The notes beneath the pieces are model-generated. The model saw only the letters and a program-made list of their open reading frames with translations. It was not told where the DNA came from and searched no databases. The position numbers were made by a program, and so were the translations under genes. A stretch of DNA of 22,677 nucleotides from a virus: positions 1 to 22,677 of IMG/VR virus record IMGVR_UViG_3300031746_000185; one strand, written 5' to 3'. Numbering within the stretch: the stretch's first letter is position 1; each line of letters starts with the position of its first letter. Positions 7,119 to 20,739 of this stretch are shown one piece after another.

Positions 7119-8078
7119 TTAGCCGGCGATGCTCGTGATGCCGACGAAGTTCATGTTCCTGTGGTCTTCGTACGCCGCCGTCCACAAACCGCTCGTGAGC
7201 AGGTTGGCGTCGGTCGGGTTGGCAGTCGCCATGTAGAACGCTCTCGGAGCGGCTACATAGTCAACGGCAACCTTCTCGTACACGATGGTGTCCGCATTCG
7301 TCACGTCTTCCCAACCGTCCACGTACGGGGCTTGCTGGTGCGAGAAGTACAGCGCACCCTCGCCGAGCAAGTGGGTGTAGTAGATGTCGTCGCCAGCCGA
7401 GGACGTGGCGCCCGCTTCCGGGGTCAGGTCGTCGCTGATGATGACGTTGCGCACGCCGAGGATCGTCTCGATCATGCCGTTGTTGATGATCTCGCCGGAC
7501 CAGACGCCAGCGTACTTGTACGTGCTGATGAGGTCCTTGAGCAGGCTGTTCCAAGGCTTGCTGTGGATCAGCATGGTATGGAGCTGATCGGCGTTGTCGC
7601 CCATCTTGGCTCGGCCTTCTTGGACCGCCAGAACCGTGAGGGTTCCGCCGGTTACGTACTTGTGTGGGGTGGCTCCGACGTTCTCGCAAGCCTGAAGCGA
7701 GTAGTCCATGACCTTGATCGAGCGCTTGGCGAGCTGGTTACCAATCGTCACGGCAACCTTCTGTCCAAAGTCCTCGCCGGCCAACGCTAGCTGGTGCTTG
7801 TACCACTTGTTGCCGCTGTAGTCACGAAGGACCGGCACCTTGCCGTCGTTCGTGGCGAACGCGGTGAAGGACGCAGAGGACGTGGCGCCAATCGCGACCC
7901 GGCCGAACGCTGCGGCCTGCACGTACTTCGGGATGTTGACGAACTCGCCGCCTTGGGCGGTCAAGTTTGCGGTCGAGACATCCAGCGCACCGGATGCCAT
8001 GAGAGCAGCGAACTTTTGCTGAGAAAAAAGTCCCTGCGGCAAATAACGCGTTTGAATTACAGGAGTGTAAATTGCCAA
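7119..8078 (-). CDS. Major capsid protein
   Basis: A 319-residue protein if it starts at TTG 8078. AAGGAG lies 8 bases upstream of this TTG and the product would begin MAIYTPVIQTRYLPQG, a typical capsid opening. The frame is open up to 8252, but that stretch is a structured leader and translates to unlikely sequence. The body is rich in Ala, Gly, Thr and Val, with segments such as YKHQLALAGEDFGQKVAVTIG and VRNVIISDDLTPEAG like other phage capsid proteins. It follows the scaffold gene by two small ORFs, the normal order. It has its own promoter and leader, consistent with high expression. Which capsid family it belongs to is not certain. Confidence 0.85.
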   Translation of the reverse strand: MAIYTPVIQTRYLPQGLFSQQKFAALMASGALDVSTANLTAQGGEFVNIPKYVQAAAFGRVAIGATSSASFTAFATNDGKVPVLRDYSGNKWYKHQLALAGEDFGQKVAVTIGNQLAKRSIKVMDYSLQACENVGATPHKYVTGGTLTVLAVQEGRAKMGDNADQLHTMLIHSKPWNSLLKDLISTYKYAGVWSGEIINNGMIETILGVRNVIISDDLTPEAGATSSAGDDIYYTHLLGEGALYFSHQQAPYVDGWEDVTNADTIVYEKVAVDYVAAPRAFYMATANPTDANLLTSGLWTAAYEDHRNMNFVGITSIAG

Positions 8079-8191
8079 GTTGGTGGCTCCTTGCAAAGTC
8101 TTGGGAGGGATTCTTGCTCCAGCGGCGTACGCTGGTTGCTCACCCGTACCCCACAAGCCGAGCTCCGCAAGGCCAGAGGAACAAGCCCGAC

Positions 8192-8221
8192 GGCTCTCCG
8201 AGCCTGGGACTGTCCCTATCC
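8192..8221 (-). repeat. Leader module copy 3 (before capsid gene)
   Basis: Read on the minus strand it has GGATAGGGAC with the palindrome GGGAC-A-GTCCC (8206-8216), then the hairpin GGCTC-GGA-GAGCC (8192-8204). The same elements occur before the scaffold gene and before the methylase gene. Here they lie at the predicted start of the capsid transcript. Confidence 0.6.
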
Positions 8222-8223
8222 CG

Positions 8224-8252
8224 ATAATACTTGACAAGGGGCAAGGCCCCAA
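8224..8252 (-). promoter_or_regulatory. Promoter for the major capsid gene
   Basis: On the minus strand TTGGGG (8252-8247), a 17-bp spacer and TATTAT (8229-8224). The -35 is weak and the -10 is good. Transcription would start near 8217, giving a leader of about 140 nt. The site lies inside an imperfect palindrome (ATACTTG...CAAGTAT) shared with an opposing promoter. Confidence 0.5.
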
Positions 8253-8259
8253 GTATCAT
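8231..8259 (+). promoter_or_regulatory. Strong sigma-70-like promoter reading away from the capsid gene
   Basis: TTGACA (8231-8236), exactly 17 bp, then TATCAT (8254-8259). The -35 is a perfect consensus and the -10 matches 5 of 6 positions. The -35 elements of this and the capsid promoter lie between the two -10 elements, a back-to-back overlapping pair, so polymerase may occupy only one at a time. Confidence 0.6.
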
Positions 8260-8265
8260 GAAGGC

Positions 8266-8376
8266 ATCGGGGCTGCAACCCTCACCCGGGAGTTGCCCCG
8301 GCTCCCATGCGGGCCAGAACCTATCATGGGATGACGCCCCTGGATGACCAATAGGCTCCAGGGGCGTATCTTTTTT
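8266..8376 (+). ncRNA. Candidate small RNA of about 110 nt
   Basis: A near-consensus promoter is followed about 110 nt later by a T6 intrinsic terminator, with no ORF that has a ribosome site in between. The only ATG frame begins inside the -10 box. The predicted RNA can form a 5' hairpin (GCAAC near 8274 with GTTGC near 8293, flanked by CGGG/CCCG) and the terminator stem. It is not antisense to any gene found here. A regulatory or packaging role is possible. Ends are predictions from the promoter and T-tract. Confidence 0.5.
8334..8376 (+). terminator. Intrinsic terminator, plus strand
   Basis: ACGCCCCTGGA (8334-8344) pairs with TCCAGGGGCGT (8357-8367), an 11-bp stem with a 12-base loop, followed by ATC and T6 (8371-8376). 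The stem closely matches the terminator-like hairpin at 18457-18490. Confidence 0.85.
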
Positions 8377-8387
8377 AATCTCAAATT

Positions 8388-8412
8388 AAAAACCCCGACC
8401 ACGAGGCCGGGG
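8388..8412 (-). terminator. Intrinsic terminator, minus strand, ending the terminase-scaffold transcript
   Basis: On the minus strand CCCCG-G-CC, loop TCGT, then GG-T-CGGGG and a T5 run (8392-8388). The stem has 7 pairs and one mismatch. It lies about 50 bases after the KTSC stop, which explains why the capsid gene needs its own promoter. Bases 8079-8463 otherwise hold no gene, only leader, promoters, the small RNA candidate and the two terminators. Confidence 0.8.
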
Positions 8413-8463
8413 CGGAACAGGAGTGACCCCATCCAGCTCGAATGAGGCACTGATCAGGACTAA

Positions 8464-8664
8464 TTATACGTCGTACGTTGGCTTGATCTCGGCGTTGAAA
8501 AACTGCCCCTTTGACGCAGCCTCGACGAATTCTTGGTACGTGTCCGGGTCGACGCCTTGATACTCGTAGGGCCCACGATCCGCTATCCAGACGATCAGCA
8601 GCTCTTTATCCTCGTCGTAGGACAAGGCGTCTATGAAGCTTGACGTGACGTATTGGGTCAGCAT
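8464..8664 (-). CDS. KTSC-domain protein
   Basis: A 66-residue protein matching the whole of the small KTSC domain. The opening TSSFIDALSYDEDKELLIVW, the central YEYQGVDPDTYQEFVEA and the ending SKGQFFNAEIKPTY correspond to the family pattern 'SS-x-I-x-xhxYd...L-x-hxF...YxYxxVpxxxYxxhxxAxSxGxyhnxxIxxxY'. KTSC domains are common in phages and bacteria as stand-alone genes or fused to other domains. Their biochemical role is not established, with nucleic-acid or ribosome-related functions suggested. It is the last gene of the transcript that begins upstream of the scaffold. Confidence 0.75.
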   Translation of the reverse strand: MLTQYVTSSFIDALSYDEDKELLIVWIADRGPYEYQGVDPDTYQEFVEAASKGQFFNAEIKPTYDV

Positions 8665-8665
8665 G

Positions 8666-8854
8666 TCACTTGGCCCCGGCTGATTCCATGCAGCTACCCC
8701 TCACGATCATTATCCAGTCGAATAGCAATAGCTTCGCCCGCCTTGGGCCAACTTCAGCCAAGGCCGAGGAGTAGACCACTTTGGCCTGCTCCTCGACCTC
8801 GGGCGAGTCCTTCAGTTCAACTGCCCAGTTGCGTATGAACTCGTGGATGTCCAT
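8666..8854 (-). CDS. Small unknown protein
   Basis: A 62-residue helical protein (MDIHEFIRNWAVELKDSPEV opening). It is coupled to the scaffold stop by TAATG and followed by the KTSC gene after one base. It has two predicted helices and no cysteine cluster or membrane segment. I do not recognise it. Position between scaffold and capsid suggests a head-assembly or decoration-related role, but nothing in the residues shows this. Confidence 0.6.
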   Translation of the reverse strand: MDIHEFIRNWAVELKDSPEVEEQAKVVYSSALAEVGPRRAKLLLFDWIMIVRGSCMESAGAK

Positions 8855-9603
8855 TACTTGGGCTTGATCCCCATGCCAGCCAACGTCCTGGCCTTGACTG
8901 CCGCAGGGGTGTAGTACGCCTGCTCAGCAGCCTTCAGGCCGTCAGGGTCCGACTGCTCCCATGACGCCATGAGCTTCCTGTCCCCCAGGGCCGCCTCGTA
9001 TGACATCGTGGTGCCCTTGTTGCCAGCGCTCTGCCCATGCCTCGTGGGCAAGCCGTCAGCCAACAGGTATGGCCTTGCCGAGGCGAACTGTTGCAAGTAG
9101 GACTCGAGGGTGACTGCGTTCAGCTTCTCGTCAAGCAGGGGCTTGCCGTCCGGGCCCTTGACGAAGACATTGAGATCGTCTGGGTTGAGGGACACGACGT
9201 CGCTCAAGAGCTTGGGCAGATCATTTACCGCCTCTGGGGTAAGTCCCTTGACTGAGAGGGCAGCAGTTTTGATGGCCAATGGGACGAGTCGTTCGGCGGT
9301 GGCCCTGCGGTTCTCTTCCAGCTTGGACTGCCACTTCTGTTCGGCGTTCTGAAGGGCTTGCTTGTAGTTGCCCTCGCTCTCGAGCTTGGCCTGCTCGAGT
9401 TGCTGCTTGGTTTGGGTCTCGGTCTTGGCTCGCTCTGCTTCCTTCTGTCGGAAGCCTTGAATCTCTGCGTCAATGGAACGGACACGTTCCTTGAGAGAGT
9501 CACGATCAGTCACGAGTTCAGTCCATGCTTCCTTCCAGGGCTTTCCGCCTGGGGCGAGGTCCGGCTTCGGGTCAGTTGGGGGTACGACCACTGGTTCTGC
9601 CAT
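8854..9603 (-). CDS. Capsid scaffold protein
   Basis: A 249-residue, charged, coiled-coil protein. Residues about 30-100 form a long helix rich in Glu, Lys and Gln (KQQLEQAKLESEGNYKQALQ), after a Pro-rich opening. Such proteins fill the procapsid and leave or are cleaved before DNA entry. It lies between portal/methylase and capsid genes, the standard place. GAAGGAG precedes ATG 9603. Length and composition are typical of scaffolds of phages with HK97-fold capsids. Confidence 0.75.
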   Translation of the reverse strand: MAEPVVVPPTDPKPDLAPGGKPWKEAWTELVTDRDSLKERVRSIDAEIQGFRQKEAERAKTETQTKQQLEQAKLESEGNYKQALQNAEQKWQSKLEENRRATAERLVPLAIKTAALSVKGLTPEAVNDLPKLLSDVVSLNPDDLNVFVKGPDGKPLLDEKLNAVTLESYLQQFASARPYLLADGLPTRHGQSAGNKGTTMSYEAALGDRKLMASWEQSDPDGLKAAEQAYYTPAAVKARTLAGMGIKPK

Positions 9604-9619: not shown

Positions 9620-9674
9620 TCTCTCCGAGAATGCCATGCCCCCTCCGGGGGACATGGATGTCACGTCCCTATCC
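9620..9674 (-). repeat. Leader module copy 2 (before scaffold gene)
   Basis: On the minus strand it begins GGATAGGGAC right after the methylase stop, with GGGAC (9649-9653) and GTCCC (9665-9669) as inverted arms. A 10-bp hairpin at 9634-9657 (CCATG-CCCCC, loop TCC, GGGGG-A-CATGG on the plus strand) and TCTC-GGA-GAGA (9630-9620) follow. The module ends just before the scaffold ribosome site. Confidence 0.6.
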
Positions 9675-10921
9675 TAGTCCCAGTCCATGCTTCGTGGGCC
9701 CACGAGATCGGGCTCCATGGATTCCCTGGGGCTGTCCTTGGCTACTTCCAGGTCGCCTTCCTTGAGGCAATGAGGGCTGAACCATATGCGCTCCATGTGG
9801 CGGTTCACGTTGCCCTTCTTCTCCTTCGCCATGCCGATGTTTCCAGTCCATGGCATGACTTGCCAGCCTGGGAGGTTGTACTCGCCCTCCAAGCCGCACA
9901 GGGCGATCCTCATGTCCGGGTCGTCCTGGTTGGCCATGCAGAAGGACATGATCTCGGCCGTCATGGAACCGTCGTTGGAGTTGATGGAGTATACGTCCTG
10001 CTGCTCCCGGTTCTCCATGCTGTATGGAGGGTCGAGGAACACTCCAGTAAGTCCATGTCTCTGGGCCACGCTTGGCGTACATACCCTCTTCCAGTCTCCG
10101 CAGCAAACCCGGACGAACCTGAGCCTGTCCCGAAGGTCCCGCATGTATGCACGCAAGTCCTCCAGGCGCTCCTCGCATGTCCGGTTGCGCCCGTTCATGA
10201 CCCGCTCCACGCATCGAGTTCCACCAAGGCTAGGCTTCTGCTGATTTAGCTCCCTGTTGACGCCAAGGCCTGAGTTGCTAAGGCTAGGCTTCTGCTGCTT
10301 TAGCGCCCTGTTGACGCCCTGGCCTGAGTCGCCAAGGTGAGGGACTGCCTGCTTTAGCGCCCTGTTGACGCCCTGGCCTGAGTCGCCAAGGTGAGGACTG
10401 CGTCCTGTATTGCCTGGCCCAAGCGCCCTGTTGACGCCGACGCCAGAGTCGCCAAGGCGAGGTATAGGTCCCGACCGGGCGTCTTTGACGTTGTCCTCAA
10501 GTAACCCTTTGTTCGAGCACCAGTTCGCCCCGATCCACGAACTCAACCCCCACATCCACCAACCCGCCACCTTGCAGTCGTGGTACTCGGGCTCCGTCCG
10601 CATGCGCCTCCTGAAGTCCTTGTTGTCGTAGAGCCAGCGATGCCGGGCATGCAGGTCCGCCTCGTTCACCGGCCCGTCAGCCCACTTGGCCACCTCGTCC
10701 GGGTCCATGGACATGGACCGCCAGGCGTTGGACAAGTAGCAGTCGATGTCGTTGACCGTCTCGATCTTGTTCGTCTCGAAGGGCCAGTCCGGCCTGGCGA
10801 GCAGGACGGCCAGGCTCCCGGCGAAGGGCTCGACGTAGTTGTGGACCTCGCCCAGGCGAGGCCAGACCTCGTGGGATATGCGTCTCTTGCCGCCAAACCA
10901 TGGGAAGGGTGCCTTGAGCAT
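9674..10921 (-). CDS. D12-class DNA adenine methyltransferase with internal peptide repeat
   Basis: A 415-residue protein from ATG 10921, chosen over an upstream TTG because AGGAGA lies 7 bases before it. Motif I region PFPWFGGKRR (residues 6-14) binds S-adenosylmethionine, with YVEPFAGSLAVLLARP following. The catalytic DPPY is at residues 297-300, preceded by LTGVFL. These define Dam-like N6-adenine methylases. Target sequence cannot be told. Residues about 153-233, in the region between the motifs, carry four to five copies of a 'LGDSGxGVNRAL' unit, making it longer than usual Dam proteins. It lies between portal and scaffold, with the same leader module on both sides. Likely roles are protection from host restriction or marking of DNA for packaging. 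Confidence 0.88.
   Translation of the reverse strand: MLKAPFPWFGGKRRISHEVWPRLGEVHNYVEPFAGSLAVLLARPDWPFETNKIETVNDIDCYLSNAWRSMSMDPDEVAKWADGPVNEADLHARHRWLYDNKDFRRRMRTEPEYHDCKVAGWWMWGLSSWIGANWCSNKGLLEDNVKDARSGPIPRLGDSGVGVNRALGPGNTGRSPHLGDSGQGVNRALKQAVPHLGDSGQGVNRALKQQKPSLSNSGLGVNRELNQQKPSLGGTRCVERVMNGRNRTCEERLEDLRAYMRDLRDRLRFVRVCCGDWKRVCTPSVAQRHGLTGVFLDPPYSMENREQQDVYSINSNDGSMTAEIMSFCMANQDDPDMRIALCGLEGEYNLPGWQVMPWTGNIGMAKEKKGNVNRHMERIWFSPHCLKEGDLEVAKDSPRESMEPDLVGPRSMDWD
10225..10463 (-). repeat. Tandem coding repeat inside the methylase gene
   Basis: Degenerate direct repeats of about 54-63 bp, each containing a core close to CCCTGTTGACGCC and GAGTCGCCAAGG on the plus strand. Two adjacent units are almost identical over about 40 bp. 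Each keeps the reading frame and encodes a 'P-x-LGDSGxGVNRALxQ' peptide. Both in-frame length and near-identity suggest recent expansion by slippage or recombination. Confidence 0.85.
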
Positions 10922-10933
10922 TCGTGGTCTCCT

Positions 10934-10986
10934 GGCTCTCCGAGCCAAGCCCTTGGGGTTCCACCCCTCGGGACATGTCCCTATCC
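10934..10986 (-). repeat. Leader module copy 1 (before methylase gene)
   Basis: On the minus strand it begins in the portal stop region with GGATAGGGAC and the palindrome GGGACATGTCCC (10970-10981). A hairpin GGGGT-GGA-ACCCC (10955-10967) and the hairpin GGCTC-GGA-GAGCC (10934-10946) follow. The methylase ribosome site starts 2 bases later. Confidence 0.65.
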
Positions 10987-12618
10987 TACCATTGGCCCGC
11001 TTGGCGCCTTGCTTCCAGGCGCATAGGCCGGGTTCTGCGCCTTGCGCTGGTCCAGGTTCTCCCGCCTGTACATGGCCGGGTCGCTCTTCAGGTGGTCCTT
11101 GACCAGCTTCATCACGGTCGAGTCGTCCAGCTCCGGATGCTCCGCCTTCTCCTTGGCGAACCCAAGCTGCTCGTCCGTCTCTCCAGTGCCTACTTCCTGC
11201 TCCGGGACGATCCCAGTTGCGTACTTGCTCTCGATCTCCTGGTGCATCTCCTCGAGCTCGTCAGCCTCCATCTTGGCGCTGAACGCCAGGTCTGCCCACT
11301 TCTTGACCTGGGCCTTCTTGCACGTCTGAGGCAAGTCAGCCGCTATGACTGAGATCGTGGACGTCAACTCTTCCGCAAGGTTCTCGTCGTCGAAGTTCTC
11401 AGGGTAGTCCGGCCCCTCAACCTCAATCCCCAACGCCCCGGCCACCAAGTCCGTGACCTTCTCTTCGGCGTCCTCAGCCATGTCGCTGATCTCTGAAGCC
11501 TTGAATGCCGACTCGGTGAACCTGATCTTCAGGGCCCTGCCTGACTCCGGGCCGGATTCCGTGAGGGGATCCTTGAGTCCCATGGTTCGGTAAATCTCTC
11601 GTACCTCGCCCTCAATCGTCTGGCGCAGGGACTCGGCTTGGCTTGGGTCTGAGGACAGCCTCTCGAACTTGACTGAGTTGGCGTCAACGGGCATGACGAT
11701 CACCTTGCGTGACCCCACGTCGAACGCCTGCAACATGTCCTGCGTGGCGCTTGGACACGCCAACCACCACTGCGAGAACGTGTTCTTGCTGAGTTCTTCC
11801 CGCAGGATGGAATCCAGATTAAAGATTGACATTTGCAGCTCGGCTACGTCCTCGATCATGCTCTCGCCACATGAGTGCGGCTTGACCCACACTATGGGCA
11901 TTCCTTCCCAGCCATGCTCAACAGCCTGCTCTATGGACTTGATCTTGCCGTCCTTGCCCAGCAGTACGTCCTGGTATCCAACCTCGTCCCACAGTCTTGC
12001 CCCGCCGTATTCGCCAATGGACTCGTCTGTCACGAGCAGCTCGTCGTCCGTCCAGTTGATTACCCGGCATGGGTCCAAGTCCCGCATCACGATCCTGGAC
12101 CCGGCGGCCTTGGCCTGGGCTAGCGTCATGTTGGGTTCTGGCTTCGTGGTATCCAGCATGACGAACCAGCGGCCGGAGACGCAGGCCTTCAGGACGCATT
12201 CCCTCATGAACTCGGGCAGGCACATGTCATTGCCGTCCACGTCCTCGCTGAACTCCTCGAAGGCGGGCGTCGAGTCCCTGGTGATTGGGCTTGAGAAGAC
12301 GTATCCAATCATCTTGTCCACGAGGGCGCGGCAGAAGTTATGGCAAGTGGACAGCCTCTTGCGCCTGTCCCATGCCTTGCCTGACTCTTGTTCATGTTTG
12401 ACGAGGACGTCCTGTCCCTCGGAGTCCTTGGCGTTTTTGTAGGCGGCGCCGCCCTTGTAGCTGGCCTTGAGGAACTTCCACTTGAGGCTGAGCTTGAGGT
12501 AATCCTCGTGGAAGGGCAACGGCTTGCCTGCCTCTAGGCTGATACCAGGGGTGGGCTGAGCCTGACTCTGGTCCAGAATCTCCTGGTACTTCATGTTACG
12601 CTTGGCTAGTCCGCCCAT
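10981..12618 (-). CDS. Portal protein
   Basis: A 545-residue protein placed after the large terminase. The early segment (YKGGAAYKNAKD, then CHNFCRALVDKMIGYVFSSP) matches the opening of SPP1 gp6/DUF4055-type portals, where a helix with 'D-x-x-hGYhF' follows. A central helix with EIYRTMGLKDPLTESGPESG corresponds to the portal crown/stem region. Acidic C-terminal helices (about residues 375-500) end in a Pro-rich tail. Twelve copies form the ring through which DNA enters the capsid. AGGAGA precedes ATG 12618. Confidence 0.85.
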   Translation of the reverse strand: MGGLAKRNMKYQEILDQSQAQPTPGISLEAGKPLPFHEDYLKLSLKWKFLKASYKGGAAYKNAKDSEGQDVLVKHEQESGKAWDRRKRLSTCHNFCRALVDKMIGYVFSSPITRDSTPAFEEFSEDVDGNDMCLPEFMRECVLKACVSGRWFVMLDTTKPEPNMTLAQAKAAGSRIVMRDLDPCRVINWTDDELLVTDESIGEYGGARLWDEVGYQDVLLGKDGKIKSIEQAVEHGWEGMPIVWVKPHSCGESMIEDVAELQMSIFNLDSILREELSKNTFSQWWLACPSATQDMLQAFDVGSRKVIVMPVDANSVKFERLSSDPSQAESLRQTIEGEVREIYRTMGLKDPLTESGPESGRALKIRFTESAFKASEISDMAEDAEEKVTDLVAGALGIEVEGPDYPENFDDENLAEELTSTISVIAADLPQTCKKAQVKKWADLAFSAKMEADELEEMHQEIESKYATGIVPEQEVGTGETDEQLGFAKEKAEHPELDDSTVMKLVKDHLKSDPAMYRRENLDQRKAQNPAYAPGSKAPSGPMVG

Positions 12619-12871: not shown

Positions 12872-14254
12872 CTATCGATCCGCCCCTACTGGGGCAGGGA
12901 ATCCACGCTCCTGTGGGGCCTTCTGCTGGACTGGCTTGTCCAGCGACCCGTCCAGCCCGAAAGCCTGCGCTTCGCTGCCCACCGGGAACAGGCGATGCAC
13001 CAAATATCCAAGTGCGTCCCCCATATGGGTTCGCTTGGAATCGCTCTTGTCTATCTTCCCGTAGTCGTCCCACGATACCTCTTCCAAGTCTGTGATGAGT
13101 TCTCGGCAGGACTGATCGAATGTCAACCGTGGGTTACCTTCCGCGGGGTCGAGCATGGCGTTGACGCTGTTGTACCTGTCCACGACCCTCGGCTTGGCGA
13201 CGCCGTTCAGGCTTCGTGACCTCTTGAAGAGCTTTCGCATGGCCCCGTCCATGATCTGCACGTCCGATTCCAGAGTCCTAGTCGACCTGGCGGCCCCTGC
13301 CTCGTCACACATATGCCAAATCTCCAAGAACTTGTCGGCATAACGACTTGCGACTAGCTCGCAGGCGATCCTTGTCTGTGCGTTGTCACGTATTATGACT
13401 TCATGGAAGACGTGCATTGTCCTCTTTGCGGGATCGTGCTGGGCGATGACCCCGCAAAGAGGAGACACGTTAAGGTCCATGGAGAAGAGCAAGGGCTTGC
13501 GGACGTCGTAACAAACTCCAGTGGAGTCCATGGAACTCGTGACGTGCTTGTTCCTGTCGAACACGAAGGCCCTGCCTTGTTGATCCTCGACCCAGTTGCC
13601 CAGGACTTCCTGATTGAGTTGTTGTTGGCCATAGGTTGAGACGAGGTTCTGGATGTAGCCCGCCGGCAGGTTGGCCTCGTTGTCGTAGGTGGACCCACGG
13701 ACGACGAGCCAGTCCGTCCTTGGGTTGGACACCATGCGCTTGTAGAGCCAGCCACGCTTGCCATTCGGGGTTGAGGTGATCCTGATCTGTCTGGGGCCAA
13801 TCTTGCCCCTCATGCGCCCCAGCATGACGTCGAGGACGACTTCTTCCATGTCTCTGGCTTCGTCGAGGTAGCAGAAGTCTATCTCGATGCCACGGACGGC
13901 CCTGTCGATTCCTGACTCGAACATGGAGCGCAGGAGTATCTGGGTACCACCGGCGATGGACAGGACGTTGCTATGGGACTCGAACCTGGATGGCCAAGGG
14001 GGAGCCTCGCCGAGGTAGTATGGCACGCCCATGGAGTCCAGGTGTTGCTTGATCGAGGGGACGACGACGGCATGTAGCTGCGAGGGGGTGTTGGCCCCGA
14101 TCAATCCAAGGGAGCCCTTGTTCGTGATGGAGGTTATGGAAGCCCATAGGGTTCCAATCCATGTCTTGCCGGAGCCTAGTCCGGACAGGAAGGCTGCCAC
14201 TGGGAGCGTGGACAGGAGGAAGTCCTTTTGGGATTGGCTAAGCGTCAGGTTCAC
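12872..14254 (-). CDS. terL: Terminase large subunit
   Basis: A 460-residue protein with GTG start at 14254, overlapping the small subunit gene by 17 bases. Walker A is SGLGSGKT (residues 24-31). Walker B is FCYLDEARD with D131/E132. The C-terminal RNase-H-like nuclease shows the first acidic site in LLFSMDLNVSP (D260) and a late one in HMGDALGYLVHRL (D413). It powers DNA translocation into the procapsid and cuts the concatemer. All key residues are present, so it should be active. The ending QQKAPQERGFPAPVG is low complexity. Confidence 0.95.
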   Translation of the reverse strand: MNLTLSQSQKDFLLSTLPVAAFLSGLGSGKTWIGTLWASITSITNKGSLGLIGANTPSQLHAVVVPSIKQHLDSMGVPYYLGEAPPWPSRFESHSNVLSIAGGTQILLRSMFESGIDRAVRGIEIDFCYLDEARDMEEVVLDVMLGRMRGKIGPRQIRITSTPNGKRGWLYKRMVSNPRTDWLVVRGSTYDNEANLPAGYIQNLVSTYGQQQLNQEVLGNWVEDQQGRAFVFDRNKHVTSSMDSTGVCYDVRKPLLFSMDLNVSPLCGVIAQHDPAKRTMHVFHEVIIRDNAQTRIACELVASRYADKFLEIWHMCDEAGAARSTRTLESDVQIMDGAMRKLFKRSRSLNGVAKPRVVDRYNSVNAMLDPAEGNPRLTFDQSCRELITDLEEVSWDDYGKIDKSDSKRTHMGDALGYLVHRLFPVGSEAQAFGLDGSLDKPVQQKAPQERGFPAPVGADR

Positions 14255-14618
14255 TCTTCTTGTCCCTGACGTTGATGTTGAGCTCTATGTTGGGGGTCAC
14301 CCCGGTGGACCCCACGCTGCCAGCCTCGCCATACCTGCTCTTCAGGCGGCATGACAGGAGCTTCCAGAGCAGGAAGTCTGAGCATACGCTTGCCCTTCTG
14401 ACTGCCTCTGCTTCTAGGATCACGACGGATCGATCAAGGGCTTCCTGCCATTCTTTGAGAAACTCTGGGTTGGCTCTGAGTTCACGGTAGACGGCATGGT
14501 TAGCTATCTTGGCGAGTTCGCAAGCCTTGCGGACGCCCATTCCAAGGGCTATGTATTCGAGGACTTTGGGCTTCCATAGTTTGCCACGCTGGGGACTGAA
14601 GGGGTTAGCCTTTGACAT
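14238..14618 (-). CDS. terS: Terminase small subunit
   Basis: A 126-residue protein. The N-terminal half has a helix-turn-helix-like segment (VLEYIALGMGVRKACELAKI followed by NHAVYRELRANPEF), the usual DNA-binding part of small terminases. CSDFLLWKLLSCRLKSRYGE near residue 82 is the characteristic helical motif before the C-terminal tail. It recognises packaging sites and hands DNA to the large subunit, whose gene overlaps it by 17 bases. AAGGAA precedes the start. Confidence 0.88.
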   Translation of the reverse strand: MSKANPFSPQRGKLWKPKVLEYIALGMGVRKACELAKIANHAVYRELRANPEFLKEWQEALDRSVVILEAEAVRRASVCSDFLLWKLLSCRLKSRYGEAGSVGSTGVTPNIELNINVRDKKSEPDA

Positions 14619-14675: not shown

Positions 14676-15386
14676 TCATACCTTTCGGGGCGTATACCTA
14701 CCAGATCTGCGTCCCCTTGGGGTACTCTTGCCCGTGCTGTCCCTCTTGCCCATGCCCGGATCATAGGTTCCCAGAACTTTGAGTTCCATTTGGCGGTAAT
14801 GCTCTGGTGACCACTTCCGGTTTGCCAGAGCAGCAGCGTCTTCAATACTCAGTTGCCCCACAATGCGCAGGGCTAGGTATTTACGGCTGGCGAGTTGCCA
14901 TTCGTTGGTGCTGCCGGCCTGGAAGGAGCCAAGGAGCTGGAAGAGGTCGACGAGCAAGTCCTGGGCTGGGTTCTCGTCGCCTGGTTCAGGGGCATTGCTT
15001 GGGACATGGGCGTAATCATGTCCTTCTTCGAGGGACGACTCGGAAGCCCATGCCATGGGCCTATGTCTTCCGTGGTACTGCGAATGGTTGCTGATCCAGC
15101 GGAACCAGCACGATCTGATCCACATGGGCCAGTTCACCATTGAAACCGGGAATGTCTTGGCCCATTTGGGGACCCTGATGAACAGTTCTTGTTCCAGGTC
15201 TTCGACGCCCATGGAGGGATCGTGGCCTGACATACGGGAGCGTGCTTCGATACCCTTATGCAGGTATGCCACGGTCTGTTCCCATAGGAATACGAGCTCG
15301 TCCGGGCTAGCTGAGCCGGCCTGGATGAGGCGGACAACCCGGATACAGCCTGGGTTGTCTATGCCTGCTTCTTCGGGACAGTCCAT
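14676..15386 (-). CDS. Putative sigma-70-like transcription factor
   Basis: A 236-residue protein from ATG 15386. A GTG at 15404 would add 6 residues. Residues about 28-105 resemble sigma region 2: SPDELVFLWEQTVAYLHKGI, then DLEQELFIRVPKW and MWIRSCWFRWISNH, like the 'DLxQExFhxhhxxxxxF....WhxxhxxN' core. Residues about 165-205 (YLALRIVGQLSIEDAAALAN) look like region 4 helix-turn-helix. The tail is basic (PRGRRSGRYTPRKV). The gene lies 57 bases before the terminase operon, fitting a late-gene activator. The similarity is remote and judged by eye. A different helical DNA-binding protein is possible. Confidence 0.55.
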   Translation of the reverse strand: MDCPEEAGIDNPGCIRVVRLIQAGSASPDELVFLWEQTVAYLHKGIEARSRMSGHDPSMGVEDLEQELFIRVPKWAKTFPVSMVNWPMWIRSCWFRWISNHSQYHGRHRPMAWASESSLEEGHDYAHVPSNAPEPGDENPAQDLLVDLFQLLGSFQAGSTNEWQLASRKYLALRIVGQLSIEDAAALANRKWSPEHYRQMELKVLGTYDPGMGKRDSTGKSTPRGRRSGRYTPRKV

Positions 15387-15538
15387 CGGGTTCGATCCCC
15401 GCACTTCTTACAGACGAGTTGGAAGCCATGAAAGTTGCCCTCGCTGACGTGGGTAACTTCCCTCATGGACTTGCACTTGGGGCAGGCGAAAGCCCTCTGC
15501 TTCTCCATGAACTTCTCCAGTTGGGTTCGCTTCTTCAT
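15359..15538 (-). CDS. Small zinc-ribbon protein
   Basis: A 59-residue protein with CPKC (C19, C22) and CKKC (C43, C46), a complete four-cysteine zinc ribbon, between Lys-rich ends. Its ATG overlaps the TGA of the upstream sigma/ribbon protein (ATGA), and its end overlaps the start of the next sigma-like gene. The three are therefore probably translated as a coupled set. Single ribbons of this kind bind DNA, RNA or RNA polymerase. The exact partner cannot be told. Confidence 0.75.
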   Translation of the reverse strand: MKKRTQLEKFMEKQRAFACPKCKSMREVTHVSEGNFHGFQLVCKKCGDRTRWTVPKKQA

Positions 15539-16773
15539 TCCTTCTTGCCTCCCCTTGCATGGCTTGAAGATGGCTTGCAGTCCCAGCACAGGGACCGTCC
15601 GACGAGGTGCATGTGGCGATTGAATTCGTTGCCGCACCTTTGGCACTTGACCACGACCATGGCCGACGAGGTGACTGGCTGGCATTCCCAGCACCGTTTG
15701 CGACCCAAGGACGTGAACCCGTGGATGGAGAATGGCTTGCCACACTTCTCGCATTCATTGTCCTGGAACTTCCTCCTTGGAGTTGCCTTCCTGGAGAATG
15801 GGGGAGCGCAGTCGAAGCACGTGGTCCTCTTGTGGTGGTAGCTAGTGCCCACCACGAACGTCCCCCCGCACTTGTCGCATGTCCTGTCCCTCTTGAGCGG
15901 CTTGGCCCTGGGCTTGCAATCCCAGCAGGTGGTCCTCCAGGCATGGCCTTGGCCCGTTGGCACGGAGGTCCTGAATTCCTTGCCGCACTTGTCGCACTCT
16001 ATGTCCATGTTCTTCTTGCGCTTGGGGACGCAGTCCCAGCAGTAGGTTCGCGGGGACGAGTACTTGTTCTTGACCAGGAACGACTTCCCGCACTTGTCGC
16101 ACGTCCTGGTTCCCTTGCCCCAGAGGGAAGGGTCCCTTGGGTCGGCCCTCTGCTTGTCCCTGTTCGCCGCCAAGGCTGCCAGTTCCTTCTCGCTCTTCCC
16201 CCAGTTCTCCTTGGCGAAGGCACGCAGCTTGTGGACCATGCGCTGCTTCGAGTTGTCCCTTGACTTGTTGAATTCCGGGCCCTTGTCGCCCGACAACATC
16301 AGGTCCAGCTCCAGCTTCTCCGGGTCCGTGAGGCGCAGGTACCTTGCAAGGCGAATCACCTCGTCCAGTTCCGACTTGGCATCGAGCCACTTCTTCTCGA
16401 TCCTGTCCCTGATCCACCCTGGATTCATAAGCTCCTCCATGGACATGAGGTCGTCGGAGCTCTCCAGCCTCTTGTCCATGTCGTTGTTCAGGCTCACGAG
16501 CGACATCCCCCGGGGGACGTTCCGCCTGAACGAGGATGACCTGAGGAACGTGCGGGCACGGTTCATGAAGCACGTGCTCAGCCACGTCGAGAAGGAGCTC
16601 TTGGACTTGTCGTAATGACGCCATATCCTGGGCAGGTCCAGCAGGCACCAGGAGGCGCAGTCCTCCTGGTCGTGGAGCCTCTTGACGCACTTCTTGGCGC
16701 AGAGCCTGGCCATGTCGAGGGCGTCGGACCAGGCTTCCTCGGTGAGCGGCAGGGGGTTGGCATGGCTTCCCAT
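15535..16773 (-). CDS. Sigma-like protein fused to five zinc ribbons
   Basis: A 412-residue protein. Residues about 35-90 (ASWCLLDLPRIWRHYDKSKS, FSTWLSTCFMNRARTFL) resemble sigma region 2. Residues about 138-190 (LTDPEKLELDLMLSGDK, then SRDNSKQRMVHKLRAF) resemble region 4 with a recognition helix. Residues 225-399 hold five ribbons, each CxxCGxxF...CxxC: C225/228-C245/248, C260/263-C283/286, C299/302-C319/322, C341/344-C361/364 and C377/380-C396/399. Most end CWDC followed by Lys-Pro. The ribbon array is clear. The sigma part is a remote match judged by eye. I know of no family with this layout. Upstream ribosome signals are weak. Confidence 0.65.
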   Translation of the reverse strand: MGSHANPLPLTEEAWSDALDMARLCAKKCVKRLHDQEDCASWCLLDLPRIWRHYDKSKSSFSTWLSTCFMNRARTFLRSSSFRRNVPRGMSLVSLNNDMDKRLESSDDLMSMEELMNPGWIRDRIEKKWLDAKSELDEVIRLARYLRLTDPEKLELDLMLSGDKGPEFNKSRDNSKQRMVHKLRAFAKENWGKSEKELAALAANRDKQRADPRDPSLWGKGTRTCDKCGKSFLVKNKYSSPRTYCWDCVPKRKKNMDIECDKCGKEFRTSVPTGQGHAWRTTCWDCKPRAKPLKRDRTCDKCGGTFVVGTSYHHKRTTCFDCAPPFSRKATPRRKFQDNECEKCGKPFSIHGFTSLGRKRCWECQPVTSSAMVVVKCQRCGNEFNRHMHLVGRSLCWDCKPSSSHARGGKKE

Positions 16774-16791: not shown

Positions 16792-17049
16792 CTACGGGTT
16801 GTCGGGGCGGGGGCCGAAGCGGGAGTAGATCGGTGATATTGCGCTGAAGTACCTTGCCAGAACCTCCGAGTGTCGCTCGGGCGTGTTCTCGACGGCGACC
16901 TGCTTGTCCATGAGCCACCATTCCTTGGAGCCGTCCGACCGTTCTATTGCGGGTCCATGGTTTCTATGCCAGGGCTGGTAGGGGCTTCCGGTATCTTTGT
17001 ACCAGAGTCGATCCCCGTTTTCGCAGTGGTGTGGTTTACACACAACCAT
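16792..17049 (-). CDS. Small protein with a MORN-variant/YwqK-like motif
   Basis: An 85-residue protein from ATG 17049 (MVVCKPHH), which overlaps the previous gene by 14 bases. The segment LWYKDTGSPYQPWHRNHGPA, then IERSDGSKEWWLMDKQ, matches the 'WY..G..HR.dGPA.x.x.DGxxxWhhxGxxh' repeat seen in phage and bacterial proteins related to YwqK. The role of that repeat in phages is unknown. The rest is helical. The cysteines (C4, C9) are too few for a zinc site. Confidence 0.6.
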   Translation of the reverse strand: MVVCKPHHCENGDRLWYKDTGSPYQPWHRNHGPAIERSDGSKEWWLMDKQVAVENTPERHSEVLARYFSAISPIYSRFGPRPDNP

Positions 17050-17401
17050 TTGGACACTTCCACGTTCCAAGGGGCCATTGCCCGATTATCGTCCGGCCAA
17101 TGACTCGCTCGTTGGAGCACTTGGAGCAACGGAATGTCCCGTTACTTCCGTCCTCCGACACGAGCTTCACCGAGCGGTACTTTGCCTTCCAGTACGCCGA
17201 GTTCTTCGTCGTGACATTCGATCCCATGGCGCGAATATGGCGGTCCTCGACGTGCTTCGCCAGCTCGAGAAAGCAGTACTCGACCACGTCCCGCCAGCCC
17301 TCGTGCTCGATCCCGGCGACGAGAGCGTTGAACTGCTCGGCCGAGATGAGCTTCAGGGTGTGGGCCTGGCCGAGCGAGTCGTACATGTCTTGGATTGTCA
17401 T
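17036..17401 (-). CDS. Helical protein with C-terminal zinc ribbon
   Basis: A 121-residue protein from ATG 17401, preceded by GGAGG. A TTG at 17413 is a less likely start. Residues 1-60 are helical (GQAHTLKLISAEQFNALVAG). C92/C95 (CSKC) and C116/C120 (CPNGC) form a zinc-ribbon-like site at the very end. The start overlaps the stop of a 31-residue ORF by ATGA. It belongs to the minus-strand regulatory block with many ribbons. Function unknown; nucleic-acid or RNA polymerase binding is plausible. Confidence 0.7.
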   Translation of the reverse strand: MTIQDMYDSLGQAHTLKLISAEQFNALVAGIEHEGWRDVVEYCFLELAKHVEDRHIRAMGSNVTTKNSAYWKAKYRSVKLVSEDGSNGTFRCSKCSNERVIGRTIIGQWPLGTWKCPNGCV

Positions 17402-17493
17402 GAGAGCCTCCAAACCCGCCTACCATACCGCTTGGACAACCTCTTGTCAAGCCTCCAGCGCAGCCGGGGGCGCTTCTTCTCGGTGCGAGTCAT
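17398..17493 (-). CDS. Very small, highly basic protein (31 aa)
   Basis: A short frame exactly fills the gap between two genes: ATG at 17493, and TGA overlapping the next start as ATGA. The product has 14 Lys/Arg out of 31 residues plus three Trp (RPRLRWRLDKRLSKRYGRRV), resembling a nucleic-acid-binding or RNA polymerase-binding peptide. The ribosome site is only G-rich and sits in the stem of an inverted repeat at 17462-17509. Tight coupling suggests it is translated. No family is recognised. Confidence 0.45.
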   Translation of the reverse strand: MTRTEKKRPRLRWRLDKRLSKRYGRRVWRLS

Positions 17494-18393: not shown

Positions 18394-18498
18394 TTCAGGC
18401 AGAAGCAAAGTAGAACTTAACTGGGAGCCGGAGTAATGACCCGGCGGCAGTTCCCGCCCCTGGAGTCCTTCCTGCCTGAACCTCCAGGGGTATTTTTT
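18394..18498 (+). terminator. Leader terminator with loop-complementary upstream segment (attenuator candidate)
   Basis: CCCCTGGAG (18457-18465) pairs with CTCCAGGGG (18482-18490), followed by TA and T6 (18493-18498), an intrinsic terminator 18 bases before ATG 18517. The loop contains CTGCCTGAA (18472-18480), the exact complement of TTCAGGCAG (18394-18402) upstream. Loop pairing could compete with the terminator stem or form a pseudoknot, so read-through may be regulated. The stem matches that of the terminator at 8334-8376. Confidence 0.65.
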
Positions 18499-20154: not shown

Positions 20155-20469
20155 ATGGCGGAAGTAGTCAGGTGTTCCGACTGCGGAAAGGAGTACCTGA
20201 GAACCAGGCTCATCAAGGTCAGGGGTGAGAGCACCCTGATATGCTTTGCCTGCCAGGTCAAGCGGGTTCGCAAGAGAACGCCATGCGAACCCTGCCGGTC
20301 CGACAAGATCGTTAGCCATAGCTCGTGGTACAGGGACACGGAATGGTTCGTCAAGGTCTTCTGCGCCCAGTGCGGGCACCCGGAGTGGGCCAGCAGGTCC
20401 AAATGGAAGCCGCCCCCGGGATACGTCGAGCCCAAGGAGCCCAGCATGTGGGACGTTCCCTTGACATGA
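20155..20469 (+). CDS. Double zinc-ribbon protein
   Basis: A 104-residue basic protein with two four-cysteine clusters: C7/C10-C30/C33 (CSDC, CFAC) and C44/C47-C70/C73 (CEPC, CAQC). AAAGGAG lies upstream of ATG 20155. The linker VKRVRKRT is Lys/Arg-rich. Tandem ribbons like this bind nucleic acid or replication/transcription partners. In the primase operon a DNA-binding accessory role is likely, but no family is recognised. Confidence 0.75.
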   Translation: MAEVVRCSDCGKEYLRTRLIKVRGESTLICFACQVKRVRKRTPCEPCRSDKIVSHSSWYRDTEWFVKVFCAQCGHPEWASRSKWKPPPGYVEPKEPSMWDVPLT

Positions 20470-20556
20470 CGCTTGACATCCCAACCCAACCACTGTAGCA
20501 TTCGTTGGAGATCGTGGCGTGGCGTGGCAAGGAACGTGATCCAGGGGGTATCCAGA

Positions 20557-20739
20557 GTGACCATCCAATGCCCAAACTGCGGGCGACAGACCCGAGCCAT
20601 GACGCATGTCCAAGTCCCCCTCTCGGTGGGCTACGAGAAGATCGTGGGCTGCCAGGCATGCGTCCGGATTCTGGGAAGGAACGGGTTGCGGATTCGCCGA
20701 AGTCAAGCCCTGGCGAACAGGAGGAACGACAATGGCTGA
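20557..20739 (+). CDS. Small zinc-ribbon protein with basic tail
   Basis: A 60-residue protein from GTG 20557, chosen because GGGGG lies 8 bases upstream and the sequence before it in frame is unconvincing. CPNC (C5, C8) and CQAC (C32, C35) form one zinc ribbon. The tail GRNGLRIRRSQALANRRN is strongly basic. The stop overlaps the start of the next gene by 8 bases. Likely a nucleic-acid-binding accessory. Confidence 0.6.
   Translation: MTIQCPNCGRQTRAMTHVQVPLSVGYEKIVGCQACVRILGRNGLRIRRSQALANRRNDNG

Follow-up and report, generated by a model that had tools for sequence, protein, structure and literature searches.

A sigma-like phage protein with a predicted C-terminal array of five zinc modules

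Introduction

Some phages are well known to encode sigma factors for their late genes, with gp55 of T4 and gp34 of SPO1 as examples (PMC9429907), and the ECF sigma factor of phiEco32/SU10 likewise is a late-gene sigma factor encoded by a phage (PMC4281155). Bacterial ECF sigma factors may carry C-terminal extensions, such as the SnoaL-like one of ECF41 and the TPR-rich one of ECF42, and Cys-rich C-terminal extensions regulate the sigma factors of group ECF238 (CorE-type) (PMC8999054). In a survey of jumbo phages, sigma factors encoded by phages and expansions of single zinc ribbons are separate observations, and the passages on them describe no fusion of a sigma factor with zinc ribbons (PMC7824862). 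Here, we analyzed a protein, P0001, encoded in a 22,677-base record of an uncultured virus, the whole of which is referred to as the window. In this protein, a sigma-like core is followed by a regular tandem array of cysteine motifs.

Results

The record represents a tailed phage of bacteria. Its genes lie mostly on the minus strand, and the plus-strand genes from position 18436 on are of unknown function. The original prediction had placed the protein at 15535-16773, and these boundaries proved exact; however, the gene is located on the minus strand, where the reading frame is intact, and the plus-strand reading of the same interval is broken by stops (Table 1). The gene stands just ahead of the packaging and particle genes, in a leftward gene run that is headed by a promoter-like site. 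By inspection of the intergenic gaps and the listed repeats, no late-promoter motif common to several sites was identified.

An unusual number of small zinc-ribbon-like proteins is encoded by the phage: further small open reading frames with CxxC pairs occur at 17036-17413 (-), 20155-20469 (+), and 20473-20739 (+). A 54-nt tandem repeat at 10224-10462, giving a protein repeat like HLGDSGQGVNRALKQ, is situated within a gene for a D12-type adenine methyltransferase (9674-10948, -). Viewed by eye, the gap ahead of the major capsid gene (8253-8853, -) contains a short unlisted open reading frame (MLTQYVTSSFIDALSYDEDKELLIVWIADRGPYEYQGV...) as well as a terminator-like element in which TTTTT follows a G+C-rich stem.

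Table 1. Position of P0001, its parts, and neighboring features in the window.
Feature	Position	Strand	Remarks
Promoter-like site, sigma-70-type	17422-17450	-	TTGACA-N17-TATGGT (10/12); consensus match only
P0001, sigma-like/zinc-array protein, whole gene	15535-16773	-	412 aa; ATG 16773, stop 15535
Sigma-70 region 2-like domain, ~residues 24-86	16516-16704	-	core YDKSKSSFSTWLSTCFMNRARTFLRSSSFRR; Pfam PF04542, hhalign, Foldseek
Helical segment, residues 118-190	16204-16422	-	predicted helices; possible region 4-like helix-turn-helix
Linker, residues 191-221	16111-16203	-	mostly predicted helical
Zinc unit 1, residues 225-248	16030-16101	-	CDKCGKSF...CWDC
Zinc unit 2, residues 260-286	15916-15996	-	CDKCGKEF...CWDC
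Zinc unit 3, residues 299-322	15808-15879	-	CDKCGGTF...CFDC
Zinc unit 4, residues 341-364	15682-15753	-	CEKCGKPF...CWEC
Zinc unit 5, residues 377-399	15577-15645	-	CQRCGNEF...CWDC
59-aa zinc-ribbon protein, two knuckles	15359-15538	-	CPKC...CKKCGDRTRW; 56% identical in L002 (from 3782, +)
P0002, second sigma-like protein	14676-15404	-	at most 242 aa, true start uncertain; 63% identical in L002
Terminase small subunit (TerS), Sf6-type	14238-14618	-	weak match
Terminase large subunit (TerL)	12872-14254	-	profile matches
Portal	10981-12618
Scaffold	8854-9603
Major capsid	7119-8252

Sequence profiles and a structure model support the presence of a region 2-type domain at the N-terminus of P0001. 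The Pfam family Sigma70_r2 (PF04542) covers residues 26-81 with 29.4 bits (E = 7e-7), above its gathering cut-off of 24 bits; within the protein's own record the E value is 1.6e-9, and this is the sole such match in the 22.7 kb. The NCBIfam sigma70-ECF model gave 1.9e-6, which is below the NCBIfam cut-off. Against a sigma profile that combines E. coli RpoE with 14 phage homologues (15 sigma factors), the core scored 44.7, compared to 21.2 for the best of 250 shuffles (0/250 reaching the score), and the region 2 part alone scored 39.0 by hhalign versus a null maximum of 20.1 (0/200 shuffles). Weak matches only were obtained when P0001 was searched by sequence against the PDB. The AlphaFold model, built from two sequences, is weak overall (mean pLDDT 53.8), with core helices mostly at pLDDT 65-79. 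Compared to the PDB by Foldseek, this predicted model matched SigE domain 2 with a TM score (target) of 0.60-0.69, an rmsd of 2.3-3.7 Å, and a probability of 0.95-0.99, and nearly all of the 50 matches listed were sigma factors. Among the viral models of BFVD, the core half matched phage ECF sigma factors and the array half zinc-array nucleases; no named top match clearly possessed both halves, and several matches were unnamed.

The likeness to region 2 that had been read from the sequence was thus borne out by the Pfam score, the shuffled profile comparison, and a predicted fold that matches sigma domain 2 and not an unrelated one. Nor did the homologues turn out to be endonucleases: the only core homologue located is none, and the nucleases found are relatives of the zinc array only. 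At the position of the region 2.2 core-binding motif D-L-x-Q-E, alignments inspected by eye display EDCASW in P0001 and GEALSF in its homologue from a sister contig (see below), so that docking of P0001 to RNA polymerase may differ. Divergent phage sigma factors are variable at this motif as well.

Residues 1-190 had originally been assigned to sigma regions 2 and 4. Only the first half of this assignment was confirmed, as no Pfam region-4 match occurred in P0001 and the hhalign score against a region 4 profile lay within the shuffle range (13 of 200 shuffles reached it). The AlphaFold model predicts three helices in this part (118-143, 150-161, and 174-190), and a region 4 within residues 118-190 is possible on the basis of that model. 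Residues 81-224 contain no Cys and hence lack the CXC linker motif of CorE (a feature described in PMC8999054); P0001 as a CorE-type sensor is therefore not supported.

The array at residues 225-399 consists of five CxxC-x16..20-CxxC units, with CxxC pairs starting at residues 225, 245, 260, 283, 299, 319, 341, 361, 377, and 396. The C-to-C spacing within the units is 20, 23, 20, 20, and 19, respectively, the units repeat every 35-42 residues, and their consensus is C[DEQ][KR]CGxxF...C[WF][DE]CxP. Residues 216-412 contain exactly 20 Cys, all of which (20/20) fall within the units, in line with the five evenly spaced zinc ribbons proposed for this stretch in the original prediction; none of 100,000 residue shuffles produced five units or ten CxxC motifs. 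Judged by these motifs, the five Cys4 modules are predicted to bind zinc of the structural type. Identity between units is only 33-55% at the protein level and 57-69% at the DNA level, indicating that the array arose by an old duplication that has been maintained, and not by an assembly slip. The segment is basic, with 41 K+R versus 17 D+E.

Nearest to the array in sequence are tandem zinc arrays carried by nucleases of phages and plasmids, in which DNA binding is their probable role. An 'HNH endonuclease' of Mycobacterium phage Lukilu (L029), a very-short-patch-repair-type nuclease of a Streptomyces plasmid (L048), and phrog_1271 share with P0001 the tandem Cys4 units and the CxxCGxxF first half. 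However, the second half is mostly CSxxxC-like (FCS/treble-clef type) in these proteins and CWDCxP in P0001, so that the nuclease arrays are related in style and not proven homologues. They also end in a nuclease domain, in contrast to P0001. No such domain was present among the Pfam or NCBIfam matches to P0001 up to E = 10, and the PHROG endonuclease matches cover the zinc array only. With no nuclease domain among these matches, P0001 as an HNH/PDDEXK nuclease is not supported. A zinc-array protein of a Natrinema plasmid (L049), which has an FCS-type zinc finger match, resembles P0001 in its tandem CxxCG-type array and in having no recognized nuclease fused to it; unlike P0001, it possesses no sigma-like core.

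Alignment searches with TerL yielded one close contig, L002, in which TerL is 88% identical, and three distant ones. At the same place as P0001, L002 encodes a distant homologue of 220 aa that is 26% identical to residues 9-183 (E = 3e-7 for the contig alone). Its match to the sigma profile is weak (21.9 versus a maximum of 17.7 in 150 shuffles). The homologue ends before the array and has no zinc array, which indicates that the array is an optional add-on. The DNA of both contigs becomes similar precisely where the next gene starts (first base at window 15538 and L002 3782). Downstream of this position L002 aligns at approximately 73%; the P0001 gene does not align and thus has either been replaced or diverged far faster than its neighbors.

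The order sigma-like gene, 59-aa zinc protein, second sigma-like gene, TerS, TerL is common to the window and L002. The ATG of the 59-aa protein overlaps the P0001 stop (ATGA). P0002 is encoded directly upstream of TerS, and its segment VEDLEQELFIRV matches the sigma region 2.2 motif, at which VEDLEQE is retained. Against the sigma profile, P0002 scored 31.7, with a shuffle maximum of 23.4 (300 shuffles). The region 2 part alone exceeded all 200 shuffles, and the region 4 part, a possible helix-turn-helix, was marginal (reached by 3/200). P0002 had no match in Pfam, PHROGs, or NCBIfam at the usual thresholds and a Pfam match of 0.18 once cut out, and its structure model, of too low a quality to be informative (pLDDT 43), gave no fold match. 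From these profile scores, P0002 is a candidate sigma-like protein, more weakly so than P0001. In the more distant TerL relatives (KBS-S-2A, Scapp, and L003), no obvious sigma-like gene was seen by eye ahead of the terminase. The sequence HR-HGPAIE--DGSK-WWM is common to small proteins encoded at window 16792-17070 (-) and L002 1129-1572 (-), the position and orientation of which relative to the terminase genes differ between the two phages.

No homologue of full P0001 was obtained from IMG/VR or, using peptide patterns, from GTDB genomes. Phage and plasmid records returned none over most of its length, with similarity at the level of the array only, and in 50,697 phage records the core had no sequence homologue. 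A degenerate WDC...C[DE]KCG pattern for consecutive units matched 23 contigs across IMG/VR, none of which displayed an array or a sigma core. TerL alignment searches of GTDB gave no match and searches with the major capsid protein and P0002 nothing new, so that none of these searches pointed to a host. The original prediction had termed the architecture unfamiliar, and in limited searches we likewise found no other example: no second sequence combines a sigma core and a tandem zinc-ribbon array in one protein, within searches that reach close relatives or named records only, and no report of it was found in a limited search of the literature. The joining of a sigma-like core to a five-module zinc array therefore appears to be new, with a rarity that searches of this reach do not prove.

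Discussion

With moderate confidence, we read P0001 as a sigma-like factor for late transcription of the phage, to which the array adds an accessory means of binding nucleic acids. The first part of this reading is based on the region 2-type domain, the gene order kept in L002, the promoter match, and the known late sigma factors of phages, the second on the basic charge of the array and on its relatives on nucleases. P0001 would probably be expressed from the host-type promoter heading the leftward gene run. The region 2-type domain would then dock on the clamp of the host RNA polymerase and engage phage promoters at a -10-like element, and the basic five-module array might add contacts to nucleic acid or RNA polymerase; in the simplest case, these would be made to DNA upstream of the promoter and help or replace a degenerate region 4. 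The gene order suggests that P0001, the 59-aa zinc protein, and P0002 could together redirect the host RNA polymerase to the genes for packaging and structural proteins. Several points speak against this reading: region 4 is undetectable by sequence, the region 2.2 motif appears altered, no repeated late-promoter motif was identified in the gaps and repeats inspected, and the weak model built from two sequences is accompanied by one homologue only, that of the core alone.

Other roles in packaging or processing, in binding of RNA polymerase or RNA, or in metal sensing are less likely than that of a late-transcription factor. The best of these, although unlikely, is that the sigma-like gene pair serves DNA packaging or processing without any role in transcription, the region 2-like domain binding single-stranded or melted DNA and the array a packaging or nicking site. 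TerS and TerL immediately adjoin the pair in both phages, and the array's nearest relatives sit on nucleases; however, both adjacent genes are sigma-like, sigma domain 2 dominates the fold matches, and the distant TerL relatives have, by eye, no such genes ahead of the terminase. Next in rank and similarly doubtful is that the partner of the array is not DNA but RNA, RNA polymerase, or a further transcription protein; targeted by the core, the array might, for example, displace the host sigma factor or influence elongation. Several transcription factors contact polymerase through zinc ribbons, and the gene next to that of P0001 encodes a small zinc-ribbon protein that is conserved. The strong positive charge and the nearest relatives on DNA-cutting enzymes argue against this role. 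Lower again we place a narrower form of our own reading, in which region 4 has been replaced by the tandem zinc array that would read upstream promoter DNA, with P0002, two genes downstream, as a sigma-like partner.

We consider it quite improbable that the array is a metal- or redox-responsive extension that switches the sigma core on and off in the manner of CorE. To our knowledge, phages seldom need a metal-sensing switch. The array is C-terminal to the sigma core, as are the Cys-rich extensions that regulate ECF238 factors (PMC8999054), but it comprises five regular, basic Cys4 modules of the structural-zinc type, and the sister phage does without it; no anti-sigma or metal-response context was seen around P0001. 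Least probable of all is a functionless fusion accident or mobile-nuclease remnant, in which the array of a free-standing nuclease was inserted into a sigma-like gene: it would fit the array-less sister phage, the DNA similarity that begins exactly at the end of the P0001 gene, and the related arrays of mobile nucleases, but the reading frame is intact and 5/5 units retain every one of their cysteines (20 in total) together with the CG/F pattern in spite of only 33-55% identity, which implies selection.

If the array of the presumed late-transcription factor binds promoter DNA, P0001 would represent a natural case of a sigma-like factor that reads DNA through a modular arm made of repeats, which we encountered in no other sequence or paper, and the replaceability of sigma region 4 could be tested on it directly. 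Two sigma-like genes and a small conserved zinc protein ahead of the terminase would suggest that a phage group with few sampled members possesses a late-gene switch that has gone unrecognized. Should the array have another role, phage sigma factors would still be seen to gain or lose large C-terminal modules between close relatives.

P0001 shares with T4 gp55, SPO1 gp28/gp34, the ECF sigma factor of phiEco32/SU10, and the sigma-W-like proteins of crAss-like phages a region 2 domain in a phage protein near late genes. It differs from the phage ECF and sigma-70 factors in its five C-terminal zinc modules, the lack of a detectable region 4, and the altered region 2.2 motif. As in the ECF sigma factors with extensions, a sigma core is followed by a C-terminal extension, which in CorE is also Cys-rich; in contrast to theirs, the extension of P0001 is a regular, basic tandem of five Cys4 units of approximately 24-27 residues, and it occurs in a phage.
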